Positions 732 to 10,016 of a stretch of 45,736 nt of DNA are shown piece after piece. Positions within the stretch are counted from its first letter, which is position 1; each line of letters opens with the position of its first letter. Source of the stretch: Actinomycetes bacterium. Its GTDB lineage: Bacteria; Actinomycetota; Acidimicrobiia; Acidimicrobiales; JAKAOS01. The DNA is taken from assembly GCA_021791675.1 (NCBI GenBank), contig JAJYWE010000001.1, positions 1 to 45,736 on the forward strand. The letters run 5' to 3'. Position numbers and translations under genes: made by a program. The notes beneath the pieces are model-generated. The model searched no databases and was not told where the DNA came from. It was given only the letters and a program-made list of their open reading frames with translations.

Positions 732-803
732 CGGGGAGTAGCGCAGTGGTAGCGCACCTGCTTTGGGAGCAGGAGGTCGGGGGTTCAAATCCCCCCTCCC
801 CGA
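732..803 (+). tRNA. tRNA-Pro (anticodon UGG)
   Basis: Full cloverleaf. The acceptor CGGGGAG pairs with CTCCCCG, with A as discriminator base. The D arm is GCGC..AGCGC. The anticodon stem CCTGC/GCAGG encloses the loop TTTGGGA, giving anticodon TGG. The T arm GGGGG-TTCAAAT-CCCCC is perfect. No CCA is encoded at the 3' end, unlike the tRNA-Gly four bases downstream. Confidence 0.95.
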
Positions 804-807
804 CGGC

Positions 808-881
808 GCGGGCGTAGCTCAATGGCAGAGTCCCAGCCTTCCAAGCTGGTCATGCGGGTTCGATTCCCGTCGCCCGCTCCA
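808..881 (+). tRNA. tRNA-Gly (anticodon UCC)
   Basis: The acceptor GCGGGCG pairs with CGCCCGC, followed by discriminator T and an encoded CCA (879-881). The anticodon stem CCAGC/GCTGG encloses CTTCCAA, giving anticodon TCC. The T arm is CGGG-TTCGATT-CCCG. It lies 4 bases after tRNA-Pro and is probably co-transcribed with it. Its 3' end borders the decayed region at about 900-2040. I looked for a second copy of its 3' end, as an attachment site would leave, and saw none nearby. Confidence 0.95.
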
Positions 882-1063
882 GCGCTTTTCCCCTCCTGAG
901 CAGCAAACCTCCCCACTCCCTGCGCAAGGCGTCGCGGCGCTTCGCGCGCTTTCACGCGGCCTTGTGCCAGAAAGATATGGCACGGGGCTGGCACGAGCCC
1001 CCGCTGCGTTCGCCGCGCCACGCGTGGCGGGGAACGCGGGGCAGGGCGCCTCTCCGCGTCGGG

Positions 1064-1377
1064 CGCGACGAGCGGATCGCTCGAAGACTTCGCGCCGCCG
1101 AGCTCCACGTCGGGGAGCGGCGGGACCGTCTCGAACACCCTCGGCACCACCGCCACGCCCCCGCGTGGAGCGGCGCGGACCGCCTCTCCTCGACCGGCAC
1201 GGCGGGTAGCTGGTCCTGGAACGTGCCCGTGATGCTCAACCCGGGTGAGACCACGCTCACCGCGTCGAGCTTCGACCAGAACGAGATCCTCTCAGACAAC
1301 CCCTCGGCACAGAACGCCCCGACCGCCGCAGCGCTCACGGGCGGCCAGACCGAGGGCGTCCTGAAGGGCAAGGGGCT
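1064..1377 (+). pseudogene. Remnant of a secreted Ig-like-domain protein
   Basis: No intact gene occupies 882-1377, but two frames read like natural protein. One (about 1064-1190) is a Ser/Thr/Gly-rich linker such as DFAPPSSTSGSGGTVSNTL, typical of low-complexity spacers in secreted proteins. After a frame change, about 1195-1370 gives GSWSWNVPVMLNPGETTLTA followed by SSFDQNEI. This has the shape of bacterial Ig-like modules (G-x-W-x-x-x-V-x-L-x-x-G-x-N-x-ox-V-x-A-x-D). The frame break and the abrupt arrival of the inverted repeat at 1378 suggest a gene that decayed or was interrupted. The identification rests on pattern only. I see nothing recognisable in 882-1063. Confidence 0.3.
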
Positions 1378-1404
1378 TGGGGAACAACGGAACGGAAAGT
1401 CACG
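1378..1404 (+). repeat. Left terminal inverted repeat
   Basis: 27-bp end beginning TGGGGAACAACGG. It matches the reverse complement of 1683-1709 at all but one position (A versus G at position 20). Confidence 0.8.
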
Positions 1405-1682
1405 CCAAGGGCTGCGACCGCCCGAGACCAGATGCCATCCTCCGCTGCTCCAGTGCCTGTGGGCGCCGGCTTCGCCCAGTTCAGGACCACCGTGACACCT
1501 CGCGTAGCGCTCGGTTGCGGAGGGCCGACGCTCTGGCCACGAGTGGACTGTCCTACGTGCCGACGAAGTTCGGTCGTGTTCTTGGGCCCTGGCAATCCTG
1601 GGCCCGCTCGGTGCACATTCCCTGGTGATGCCTGGTACGGCCCCCCAGAAGCTGTCCGCCGACGAAGACTCGGCTTGCCTAT

Positions 1683-1709
1683 CGTGACTCTCCGTTCCGT
1701 TGTTCCCCA
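1683..1709 (-). repeat. Right terminal inverted repeat
   Basis: 27-bp end finishing CCGTTGTTCCCCA, the mirror partner of 1378-1404 with one mismatch. Confidence 0.8.
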
Positions 1710-1747
1710 TGGGCCGTGTCCGCCGGAGCTCACGGGATCGCAGGAGG

Positions 1748-1987
1748 TCAGGTAATCGGCTCGACCGGGCGCCCGATGGCGGCCGCGTTGTTGCTGAGCG
1801 GGCCGTCGAGCGTCCACACCTGGGTTCCGGCCTGCTCCGCCAGGTGTTCGGTCAGCGACCCGCCCGGCGCGTACGAGTCCTCGCCGGGAGCCACCCAGCT
1901 TCGAGCTACGCACGCAGGCCTGGCTGGCTGGCGTTCGTCGCCAACCATGAGGGCGACGAGCAGGCCGGCGTCGACCACGACACCCAT
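1748..1987 (-). pseudogene. Internally deleted PIN-domain (VapC-like) toxin
   Basis: A 79-codon frame starts MGVVVDAGLLVALMVGDE, the first strand and catalytic Asp of PIN-domain ribonucleases. It ends QVWTLDGPLSNNAAAIG followed by RPVEPI, the usual PIN C-terminus with its late T-L-D acidic residue. A normal VapC is ~130 aa. The middle, which carries the second and third acidic residues and the L-A-P-x-L-x-x-E-V helix, is reduced to a short degenerate piece (around SYAPGGSLTEHLAE). The frame is still open, so this is an in-frame internal deletion, not a frameshift. I see no antitoxin reading frame upstream. It is probably non-functional and belongs with the decayed DNA between the tRNAs and the GH3 gene. 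Confidence 0.6.
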
Positions 1988-2054
1988 CCCGGCCGGCCGA
2001 CCTCGAAGGGGGCCGCGCGGGAACCAAGCCGGCCGGTGAGAGGTCGGAGCCACC

Positions 2055-3458
2055 GTGCCCGTCCCCGCTCGCCACTCCGTCGCGCCGTCCCGCCCCGGGC
2101 TGCCGGGTCCGCCTGCCCCGGAGGCTCGCCCGGCGCCGAGGTGGCTGGCCGGACCGACCCCGGCGCGGTCGCGAGCTCGCCGTGCCGGACCCCTCCTCGC
2201 GCTCGGGCTCGCTGCACTCTGCACCGGGTGCTCTTCGGCCCCGGCACCCAGCTCGCGATCCTCCGAGCCGCCCCCGAGGAGCGCCACGACCGGGGTGCCC
2301 GGCACCGCGACGGTGCCGCCTCGCACGACGACTTCGCCGAGCACCTCGAACGCCGGAGGAGGCACCACCAGCACGGCGCCACCTCCCACCACGATTGTGG
2401 CTCCCACCGTGACGTCCAGCGCCCACTGCGACGCGACGGCGGCGATCGACTCCTGGAGCCTCGCACGCCGGGCCGCCCAGCTCCTCGTGGCCCCGGTGGA
2501 GGAGGACGACGTCGCGGCCGCGCTGCCCCTGGTGCGAGCCGGGGCGGGTGCCATCATCCTCTTCGGCAGCGCGGCGCCGGCAAACCTCGCCGCCCAGCTC
2601 GACGCGCTCGACGCGGCTGCGCAGGGCGGGGTCGCCCCGATCGTGATGACCGACGAGGAAGGGGGCGCGGTCCAGCGGATCGCGAACGTGGTCGGCGACG
2701 TGCCCTCGGCTCGGACCATGGCCGCGACCATGACCCCGGCGGCGGTGACGGCGCTCGCTCGCCAGCTCGGCACCCGGATGCGATCCCTCGGGATCCGGAT
2801 GGACCTCGCCCCCGTGCTCGACGTGAACGACGGGCCGGGACCGAACGCCAGCTATCCCGACGGCACCCGCTCCTTCAGCGCCGACCCCGCAGTCGCCGCC
2901 ACCTACGGGCTCGCCTTCGCGACCGGGCTCGAGGAGGCGGGCGTGGTGCCGGTGGTGAAGCACTTCCCCGGGCTCGGCCACGCGAGTGGGAACACCGACG
3001 TCGGACCGGCTACGACCCCACCGCTCTCGTTCCTCGAGGGTGACGACCTGATCCCGTTCCGGGACGCGATTGCAGCGGGCATCCCTGTCGTGATGGTCTC
3101 GAACGCGACCGTCCCCGGGCTCACCAGCGGACCGGCAAGCCTGTCGGAGGCGGCCGTCACCGGGCTCCTCCGGGACCGGCTCGGCTTCCGGGGCCTCGTC
3201 ATGACGGACTCGCTCTCCGCCGGGGCGATCGCCGCGACGGGTCTCGGCGTGCCCACCGCCGCGGTGGTCGCCGTGCTGGCTGGCGTCCAGATGCTCCTCT
3301 ACACCGCCCCGAGCGCGACGGCCGCCACGACGACCGGCTTCGCGACGATCCAGGCGCTCGTCGCCGCAGTCCAGGACAGGAGGCTCAACGTCTCGGTGCT
3401 CGATGCCGACGTCGCGGCCGTTCTCCGGTTGAAAGGGGTGTCACCCTGCGCTACCTGA
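2055..3458 (+). CDS. Glycoside hydrolase family 3 lipoprotein (NagZ-like beta-N-acetylhexosaminidase)
   Basis: 467 aa. GTG start with GGAG six bases upstream. Residues 1-60 form a long basic leader and hydrophobic stretch ending LAALCTGC, a lipobox-like site (Cys59). A Ser/Thr/Pro-rich tether runs to about residue 120. The GH3 barrel then shows TDEEGGAVQR (~199), LAPVLDVN (~250), VVKHFPGLGHASGNTD (~291) and LVMTDSLSAG (~372). The last carries the expected Asp nucleophile. In NagZ enzymes this family removes N-acetylhexosamine from muropeptides or glycoconjugates. Here the protein would act outside the membrane as an anchored enzyme. The canonical KHFPGHG is KHFPGLG, and the D-S-H loop of NagZ is not obvious, so exact substrate is uncertain. 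Its 3' end overlaps the convergent mechanosensitive channel gene by 18 bp. Confidence 0.85.
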   Translation: MPVPARHSVAPSRPGLPGPPAPEARPAPRWLAGPTPARSRARRAGPLLALGLAALCTGCSSAPAPSSRSSEPPPRSATTGVPGTATVPPRTTTSPSTSNAGGGTTSTAPPPTTIVAPTVTSSAHCDATAAIDSWSLARRAAQLLVAPVEEDDVAAALPLVRAGAGAIILFGSAAPANLAAQLDALDAAAQGGVAPIVMTDEEGGAVQRIANVVGDVPSARTMAATMTPAAVTALARQLGTRMRSLGIRMDLAPVLDVNDGPGPNASYPDGTRSFSADPAVAATYGLAFATGLEEAGVVPVVKHFPGLGHASGNTDVGPATTPPLSFLEGDDLIPFRDAIAAGIPVVMVSNATVPGLTSGPASLSEAAVTGLLRDRLGFRGLVMTDSLSAGAIAATGLGVPTAAVVAVLAGVQMLLYTAPSATAATTTGFATIQALVAAVQDRRLNVSVLDADVAAVLRLKGVSPCAT

Positions 3459-4562
3459 CGGCGCCTTCGAAACGCCGGCAGGCAGGGTCGTGCTGGTGCC
3501 GGTCGACACCGGGCCCGGTGTGGCCGTAGGCGAGCTCGAGCTGCTCGACCCCGAGCTCAACTTCGGGAGCATGTCCGGGTACTCCCGCGCGAGGAACGCG
3601 AGCAGGCCCTCGCGCACCGCTCCCTGGAGGCGCCACCCCGCCCAGGGATCCGGCGCGCTCACCGTGGCATGGAGCTGCGCGCCGCCCTGCCCGGCCCAGG
3701 TGACGTCCAGCCGGCCGATTCGGCCGTCCCAGTCAGCGAGCGTGCCGAGGAGCCGGGACAGCTCTTCCCTGACCGGCTCCACAGGGAGGCGGGGGTCGAC
3801 CAGGACATCCACGACCTCCACGCGCCGCATCCCGGTCCGGGTCCAGTTCTCGAAGCTCGTCCCGACGAAGGTCGAGATCGGCAGCACCAGGCAGCGTCGG
3901 TCCCAGAGCCGGAGCACCACGTGGGTGAGCCGGATCTCCTCGACCTGCCCCCAGGTCCCGTTGACGACGACGATGTCGTCGACGCGGACCGGCTGCGCAA
4001 TGGCGATCTGGATGCCGGCGAGCAGGTTCTCCGTGATGGGACGCGCGGCGATGCCGACGACGACCCCCAGGATCCCCGCCGACGCGAGCAGGCTGGCCCC
4101 GGCGACGCGGACCTGCGGGAAGCTGAAGAGGATGAGTGCGAGCGCCAACAGCACGATCGCAACCCCCGCCATCCGACGGAAGACGATGACCTGCGTCTTC
4201 GAGCTGCGAGCAGCGATCGCGTCCTTGCCCTCAGAGGGCAGCCGGTCGACGAACAGGTCCTCCAGCACCGAAATGGCCCGATAGGCGACCCAGGCCCCCG
4301 CGGCGACCCCCGCCACGTAGAGCCCGTGGGCGACCCCGGCGCCCGCCGCGCCGGGGACCGGGCGGACGGTCTGGGTCAGCGCCGCGCCGATCACCGTGAG
4401 CAATGCTCGGCCCGGCCCCGTGAGACGGTCCAGGACGGGGTGTTCGGCCGTGTCCGAGACTCGGCGGGCGCCGCGCCGAACGACGAACCCGAGGACCACG
4501 GCGACGACGAGGCCGGCGAGTCCGCCGCCGACCACGACTGCGATGTGCTCGAGCTCCCCCAC
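3441..4562 (-). CDS. MscS-family mechanosensitive ion channel
   Basis: 373 aa. The N-terminal hydrophobic segments are AVVVGGGLAGLVVAVVLGF, a second around residues 70-100, and a third (VIVFRRMAGVAIVLLALALI). These lead into the pore helix region VRVAGASLLASAGILGVVVG. The family signature follows: ARPITENLLAGIQIAI, then the beta domain (QPVRVDDIVVVNGTWGQVEE, LWDRRCLVLPIS, FENWTRT). The C-terminus is a Ser/Pro/Thr-rich low-complexity tail. MscS channels open under membrane tension and release solutes during hypo-osmotic shock. The start at 4562 (MGELEHIAVV) places the first membrane segment directly at the N-terminus. It is convergent with the GH3 gene. Confidence 0.9.
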   Translation of the reverse strand: MGELEHIAVVVGGGLAGLVVAVVLGFVVRRGARRVSDTAEHPVLDRLTGPGRALLTVIGAALTQTVRPVPGAAGAGVAHGLYVAGVAAGAWVAYRAISVLEDLFVDRLPSEGKDAIAARSSKTQVIVFRRMAGVAIVLLALALILFSFPQVRVAGASLLASAGILGVVVGIAARPITENLLAGIQIAIAQPVRVDDIVVVNGTWGQVEEIRLTHVVLRLWDRRCLVLPISTFVGTSFENWTRTGMRRVEVVDVLVDPRLPVEPVREELSRLLGTLADWDGRIGRLDVTWAGQGGAQLHATVSAPDPWAGWRLQGAVREGLLAFLAREYPDMLPKLSSGSSSSSSPTATPGPVSTGTSTTLPAGVSKAPSGSAG

Positions 4563-5933: not shown

Positions 5934-8192
5934 TCATCGCCGGACCCCCCCGATCGCATCGAGCTGGGTCCCGAGCTCGTCGGCGCGCTCGGCCGGGAGC
6001 CCGCACGCGTAGCCCCTGCAGACATAGGCGCGCCCCGTCTGGCGCCCCGCCCAGAGCGGGGAGTCGTACGGGTCGCCCCAGGCCAGGACGGCACCCGGCA
6101 GGAAGCGCCGTCCGACCTCGGCCACGAGGTCGGGTGCGACCCCCGGGACGACGACCTCGGAGGGGGTGGCGCAGGTGGCATGGAGCGCAACGAGCGCCCA
6201 GCCGGCCCCGAGCGGCGCGGCGCGCATCCAGTCGGCGAGCATCGCAAGGATCCGCTCCCCCTTGGCCACCAGCTCCTCGTTCCCGAGGAGCCGCCCGAGT
6301 CGCCAGAGGGCGAAAGCCGCCGTGGCGTTGGCAGAGGGGATCGCACCGTCGAACACGTCCTTCATGCGCACCGCGAGCGGTGGCGCGTCGCGACCGACGG
6401 TGTCGAAGCCTCCGTCCTCGGCGTCCCAGAAAAGCCGGACCAGCTCGGCTGCGGCCGTGTGGGCCTCGTCGGTCCAAATGGCCCGCCCACTTGCCTCGCC
6501 GAGCCGGGTGAAGGCGTCCACGAGCCAGGCGTAGTCCGCCGCGACGGCCAGCTGACCGGCCCGTCCCTGTCGGTAGGAGCGCAGCCAACGGCCGTCGGCG
6601 CGCCGGAGCGCGCCGAGGAGGAACGTCCCGATGCGCTCCGCAGCGGCGAGCCAACGCGACGACCCGGTCGCAAGCGCCGCCTCCGCGAGGACGCCGGCGG
6701 CCATTGCGTTCCACTCGGTGAGCACCTTGTCGTCGCGGCCGGGGCGCGCACGGCGCAGGCGAGCGGCGGCCAGTCGGGCGCGCGCCGCCTCGATATCCGC
6801 CGGCAGCTCCCCTCGCGAGAGCCGGAGCGTATCGGCGGCTGCCGTGCCCCCGGGTGGCGGCCATGGCCGGTGGAGGATCGAGCGGCCAGCGAAGTTGCCG
6901 CGGTCGGTCACGCCCCACCACTCGCACGCAAGGCCGGCGAGCTCGGGGCCGAGCACCCCCTCGACCTCGGCGGGCGTCCAGACGTAGTACCGCCCCTCAC
7001 CCTCGGGCGAGTCGGCGTCCTCCGAGGAGTGCAGCCCCCCCGCCGGATCGCCGAGCTCGTCACAGAGGTACTCGAGGGTCTCCTCTGCGAGGCCGAGCCA
7101 GGTCGCTCGTCCCGTGGCCTGCCAGGCGTGCAGGTATGCCCGCGCCAGACCAGCCTGGTCGTAGGCCATCTTCTCGAAGTGCGGCACCAGCCAGGCGGCA
7201 TCCGTGGCGTAGCGTGCGAAGCCGCCCCCCAGATGGTCACGGATGCCCCCTGCGGCCATGGCCCCGAGGGCGCTCTCCAGGATCTCCACGGCGAGGCCCG
7301 GATCGACACCGCCGACCGGAGCGACGCCGAGGCGTGCGAGGAGGTCGAGGACGGCAGGCTGGGGGAACTTCGGTGCTCGGCCGAAGCCGCCGCGGGCACG
7401 GTCCCACTCCCGGACGAGGGCAGCGAAGGCTTGCGCGAGGACCGCCGGACCGTCCACCCCCTCGAGCGGCGCTACGCCAGAGCTTGCCGTGGGGCCCAGC
7501 CGAGCGTCGCTCGCGGCGCTCCCGCCCGCATCGGCACCTTCGCGCGGGGCCCTCGGAGCGACCGTCCCCACCGCCCCGCCACGCGCCGGCAGCCGGGTGC
7601 GCTGGCGGACTGCCGCGAGGAGGGAGTCCGCGTCGGCGAGCACCGCCGCCCGGCGCTCCCGCCAGGCCGCCGAGACGGCGGCGAGCAAGCCGGGAAAACC
7701 GGGCAGGCCGTGGCGGGCCTCGGGAGGGAAGTAGGTCCCCCCGAAGAAGGGCCGGCCGTCCGGCGTCAGGAAGACGGTCATCGGCCATCCCCCTTGGCCG
7801 GTGAGCGCCTGGACCGCCTCCATGTAGAGCGCGTCGACGTCCGGGCGCTCCTCGCGGTCCACCTTGATCGGGACGAAGGAGTCGTTCAGCACCGCCGCCA
7901 CATCGGGGTCCTCGAAGGACTCGTGCGCCATGACGTGGCACCAGTGGCACGCGGCGTAGCCGACCGAGAGGAGGATGGGGACGTCCCGCCGTGCGGCCTC
8001 GGCGAGGGCCTCGGGACCCCACTCCCACCAGTCCACGGGGTTCCCGGCGTGTTGGAGCAGGTAGGGGCTCGAGGAGCCTGCGAGCCGGTTCGGCCGCCGC
8101 GACCCGCCGCCCACGCCACTCGAGCCACTTCGATCGCCCGCGCCGCCTGGGCCGCCCACGGCACCAGCCGCGCCGCTCGTGTCACTGCTCAT
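5934..8192 (-). CDS. DUF255 thioredoxin-like protein (YyaL/SSP411 family)
   Basis: 752 aa, the usual family size. The N-terminus after a Gly/Ser-rich leader has the family signature [18 protein letters not shown], followed by [19 protein letters not shown] with the C-H-W-C thioredoxin-like motif, then [18 protein letters not shown] and [20 protein letters not shown]. The C-terminal ~500 residues form the alpha/alpha-barrel (six-hairpin glycosidase-like) region, with [51 protein letters not shown] and [10 protein letters not shown]. Family members are widespread; their biochemical role is not settled. Its ATG overlaps the stop of the upstream patatin gene by 4 bp (ATGA), which implies translational coupling. 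Confidence 0.9.
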
Positions 8193-9900: not shown

Positions 9901-10016
9901 CGCTACGGCGACGAGACCGCAGCCTGGGCCACCCTCGCGTCCACAGCCTGGCGGCGACGGCTGTTGCCCGGCACGGCGACGAGGCCGCAGCCCTGCCGGC
10001 TACGAGACCGCAGCCC
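9901..10016 (-). repeat. Three short direct repeats around the dnaE 3' end
   Basis: ACGGCGACGAGACCGCAGCC at about 9905, ACGGCGACGAGGCCGCAGCC at 9973-9992 and TACGAGACCGCAGCCC at 10001-10016 are near copies in the same orientation. The last copy forms the final codons and stop of dnaE. The remaining intergenic sequence (9805-9900) shows nothing recognisable. Confidence 0.55.

Follow-up and report, generated by a model that had tools for sequence, protein, structure and literature searches.

Locus and extent of the element

The window, that is, the whole 45,736-nucleotide stretch of DNA analysed here, contains a 344-bp element (1372–1715) that sits in an intergenic gap and consists of a left 38-bp terminal inverted repeat (1372–1409, plus strand; GGGGCTTGGGGAACAACGGAACGGAAAGTCACGCCAAG), a 268-bp non-coding core (1410–1677) and a right 38-bp terminal inverted repeat (1678–1715, minus strand; GGCCCATGGGGAACAACGGAACGGAGAGTCACGATAGG). 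The context outside the element includes genes for tRNA-Pro and tRNA-Gly (732–881, plus strand), the only two features that Rfam recognised in the window. The left flank (1197–1371) holds a short stretch resembling a secreted protein (SGTGSWSWNVPVMLNPGETTLTASSFDQ...), an apparent gene fragment without a Pfam match. To the right of the element, a minus-strand frame (1748–1990), likewise without a Pfam match, resembles a decayed VapC (PIN-domain) toxin gene, and DNA similar to 1864–1988 is present in the related genome G001 (L191, 76%).

The original prediction described inverted repeats at 1378–1404 and 1683–1709, paired at 26 of 27 positions, and this pairing was confirmed: a scan of the window tolerating up to three mismatches returned just these two sites, with none in shuffled sequences. 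The repeat pair thus stood, whereas the limits originally drawn around the element proved 6 bp too short on each side when copies were compared. Alignment of end copies from related genomes set the end length at 38 bp, and homology to a full-length homologue (L071:785–1130, see below) ends at the termini thus defined. At this length the repeats are imperfect, the two window ends being identical at 31 of 38 positions and differing over the outermost 7 bases (GGGGCTT versus GGCCCAT). A second repeat family, found in G178, provides another, largely independent mark of the same boundary, judging from where similarity between its copies begins: homology of 107–137 bp among the copies sets in exactly with the outermost base of the 38-mer or at most 1 base away from it, with one pairing extending 7 bases further. 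The three copies (L074:3151–3286, L075:6497–6633 and L076:602–708) share a variant end (GGGCCGTGAGGAACATCGGAACGAAAAGTGCCG) and the subterminal sequence; no partner end was found for them.

Tn3-type ends

The end sequence had not been assigned to any family in the original prediction. It is now placed in the Tn3 family by a query with a Tn3 end and by a profile of the ends that scores highly at loci of the transposase TnpA. When all 38-mers of the window were compared with the classical 38-bp Tn3 end (confirmed in at least 5000 plasmid records), the two best matches coincided with the two termini in exact register, at 1372 (plus strand, 26/38) and 1678 (minus strand, 23/38). Among the Tn3-transposase loci of the order, gathered with the Tn3 DDE model PF01526, the end profile scored 31.5 bits at an end located downstream of TnpA in L026 (G386:C211) and 22.5 bits at L047, compared with a background of at most 14.4 bits in 10 Mb of simulated sequence and 7.4 bits in the window. 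In L026, TnpA is followed by the matching end on the opposite strand, as a right end should be, and this end agrees with the right window end at 27 of 38 positions, its best match in the window, and with the left one at 24 of 38.

In the Tn3 family, the transposase and resolvase genes are the two partners. An intact serine resolvase gene (PF00239, 1.2e-43) is located 44 bp inside the same end in L080/L108, and a resolvase remnant (PF00239, 2.1e-8) lies inside the end in L057; L072 has an apparent remnant in the same place, read by eye alone. No autonomous transposon with an identical end was found among the PF01526 loci of the order, the closest TnpA-linked end being the one matching at 27 of 38 positions, and the outer ends of the window element are just partly Tn3-like, as might be expected if the element belonged to another transposase family and its GGGG-type ends were a coincidence. 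We regard this as very improbable, given that the Tn3 end finds both termini in register, that TnpA-linked ends fit the profile and that resolvase genes lie just inside such ends. The TnpA locus L077 of G397 (G397:C192) was rejected as a partner because its contig carries no matching end; there, the Tn3-family TnpA gene (938–3661) is found beside a tyrosine-recombinase-like gene (269–883) with weak N-terminal SAM-like matches.

A core without coding capacity

No transposase gene is present in the element, and the earlier claim that the core lacks a credible gene was borne out by comparison with the L071 core, in which substitutions are distributed 24/18/16 over the three codon phases and the gaps are 1 or 2 bases long. 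Such gaps, combined with the flat phase pattern, imply that no reading frame has been preserved; a coding core is thus excluded by frame-breaking indels and by the lack of a codon pattern relative to the homologue. The long open frames found on several strands reflect the GC-rich sequence. A structured-RNA core was also rejected, as the folding of two copies was no better than that of shuffled sequences (z 0.92 and −0.77).

We also compared the cores of two copies with the sequence preceding the L108 resolvase gene. The best matches (p 0.004 and 0.13) lay off the expected position of a res site, and since the best L108 match lies at a distance of ~200 bp and extends into the next genes, it provides no evidence of such a site. 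It appears unlikely, if conceivable, that this order of uncultured actinobacteria harbours a separate lineage of Tn3-derived mini-elements of its own, whose core was kept across genomes for a functional site, for example a resolution site for the resolvases adjoining the ends.

Homologous copies and probable past mobility

Similarity between the whole window element and L071 (G397:C411:785–1130) amounts to 79% over 340 bp and stops at the ends, with no homology detected between the flanks of the two. A different contig of the same genome as L071 carries paired ends spanning about 359 bp (L008), and the core between them, when reversed, is collinear with that of L071 (score 215, compared with a maximum of 173 in shuffles). 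L008 appears to be a third, more diverged copy; on the strength of these alignments, the window element, L071 and L008 appear to be complete copies of a single ancestral mini-element, located at three different sites and distributed over two genomes. A truncated copy in L055 retains about 51 bp, made up of the end and the subterminal sequence next to it, and is 88% identical to L071. Few genomes carry the end: at a tolerance of three mismatches, it was found in 3 of the 397 genomes searched in the order and in 2 of 395 genomes of the class sample, both counts including the window's own genome.

In the original prediction, a single-copy sequence present at the same site in distant relatives was to speak for a stable hairpin. 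The first half of this description applies, as no further copy of the element was found in its own genome; the second does not, the homologue in another genome being located elsewhere, with unrelated flanks. A homologue at an unrelated site, with homology stopping at the ends, is strong evidence against a fixed hairpin and favours mobility in the past. The element is short and bounded by inverted repeats (344 bp, 38-bp ends), and L071 and L008 represent copies at different genomic sites. Accordingly, the proposal of a transposase-free, MITE-like miniature element is supported by the 38-bp ends, the non-coding core and the homologues at other sites.

The target duplication anticipated by the original prediction was not recovered: no 5-mer is shared within 4 bp of the ends of the window element, L071 or L008, and hence none of the three copies displays the 5–6-bp duplication that a TIME is expected to leave on insertion. 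The lack of a duplication fits an old insertion without proving it. Nor was an empty site found in the 1.55 of about 2.6 Mb covered of the relative G001, in which orthologues of the two flanks are on different contigs. No Tn3 transposase (PF01526) was detected in the window's own genome, the assembly of which is 91% complete, suggesting that the window copy is probably stranded. Since no TnpA was detected in its own assembly and no copy is flanked by a target duplication, this is probably an old insertion that is no longer active.

The solitary ends with resolvase remnants found in related genomes, along with the missing target duplications, would also suit a relic that arose by independent deletion from one full Tn3 transposon and never moved as a unit. 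This explanation is highly improbable, because the cores of the window element, L071 and L008 are collinear from end to end, at total lengths of 344–359 bp, a pattern indicative of descent from a single mini-element. An immobile chromosomal hairpin or regulatory structure, to which the single copy in the genome and the intergenic position could be attributed, can be set aside almost completely, as it is contradicted by L071 at an unrelated site and by a core that shows no excess folding.

We favour, with a probability of roughly 90%, the interpretation of 1372–1715 as a non-autonomous, Tn3-derived miniature transposon, that is, a MITE of the TIME type. For such an element, a Tn3-family TnpA supplied from elsewhere, presumably in trans, would bind at both 38-bp ends; replicative transposition would then place a copy of the 344-bp unit at a new site, leaving a cointegrate for a serine resolvase or homologous recombination to resolve. 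The window copy would now be immobile, considering that its own assembly contains no detectable Tn3 transposase.

Relation to known miniature elements

TIMEs are Tn3 derivatives that lack a transposase, have 38-bp ends and measure a few hundred base pairs (PMC4133298, PMC13367494). Of the elements that the 2014 TIME survey found in databases, only four had direct repeats (PMC4133298), so that a duplication is not required of old copies. The closest known element (262 bp) resembles the one described here in its 38-bp Tn3-type ends, its length of a few hundred base pairs, the absence of a transposase gene and the non-coding core, and most database copies also lack direct repeats; the two differ in length (344 versus 262 bp), and their host lineages are unrelated. 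Tn3-family ends and a short non-coding core are likewise shared with TIME244, IS101, MITESen1 and IMU, which are found chiefly on plasmids of Enterobacteriaceae and are able to form composite transposons (PMC13367494), in contrast to the window element, for which no clear res-like match and no match in the plasmid collection was found. As its ends are related to those of the Tn3 family and its structural features are all those of TIMEs, we describe the element as TIME-like, a provisional assignment based on structure.

The finding extends TIME-like elements, reported in the cited literature mainly from Pseudomonas and Enterobacteriaceae, to uncultured actinobacteria; in other respects it is an ordinary parasitic mini-transposon of an established class. 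Within the incomplete literature covered, nothing was found on MITEs in Acidimicrobi- taxa or on Tn3-family MITEs in Actinobacteria, which is weak evidence of novelty. The 38-bp end profile can be used to annotate Tn3 remnants in these genomes.

Other matches and genes near the ends

The element had no match in the viral collection. Two weak matches to the core, in G054 and G075, were attributed to chance, as they comprise 29–36 bp inside unrelated sequence, and further cross-genome 18-mer matches (L004–L007, L009, L010, L012–L014) were discarded because either the remainder of the end or a partner is missing; one of them, in Ktedonobacter (L007), looks end-like, with no partner or transposase nearby. 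Toxin-antitoxin genes of the YefM-YoeB and PIN-domain VapC types occur repeatedly close to these Tn3-type ends: outside the end in L016/L057 (928–1462 of L016), at 4372–4773 in L011, and at 1931–2326 and 2779–3471 in L108. In addition, solitary ends adjoin what appear, by eye, to be broken fragments of EAL and HD-GYP genes, near 6138–6300 in L055 and near 9950–10130 in L056.
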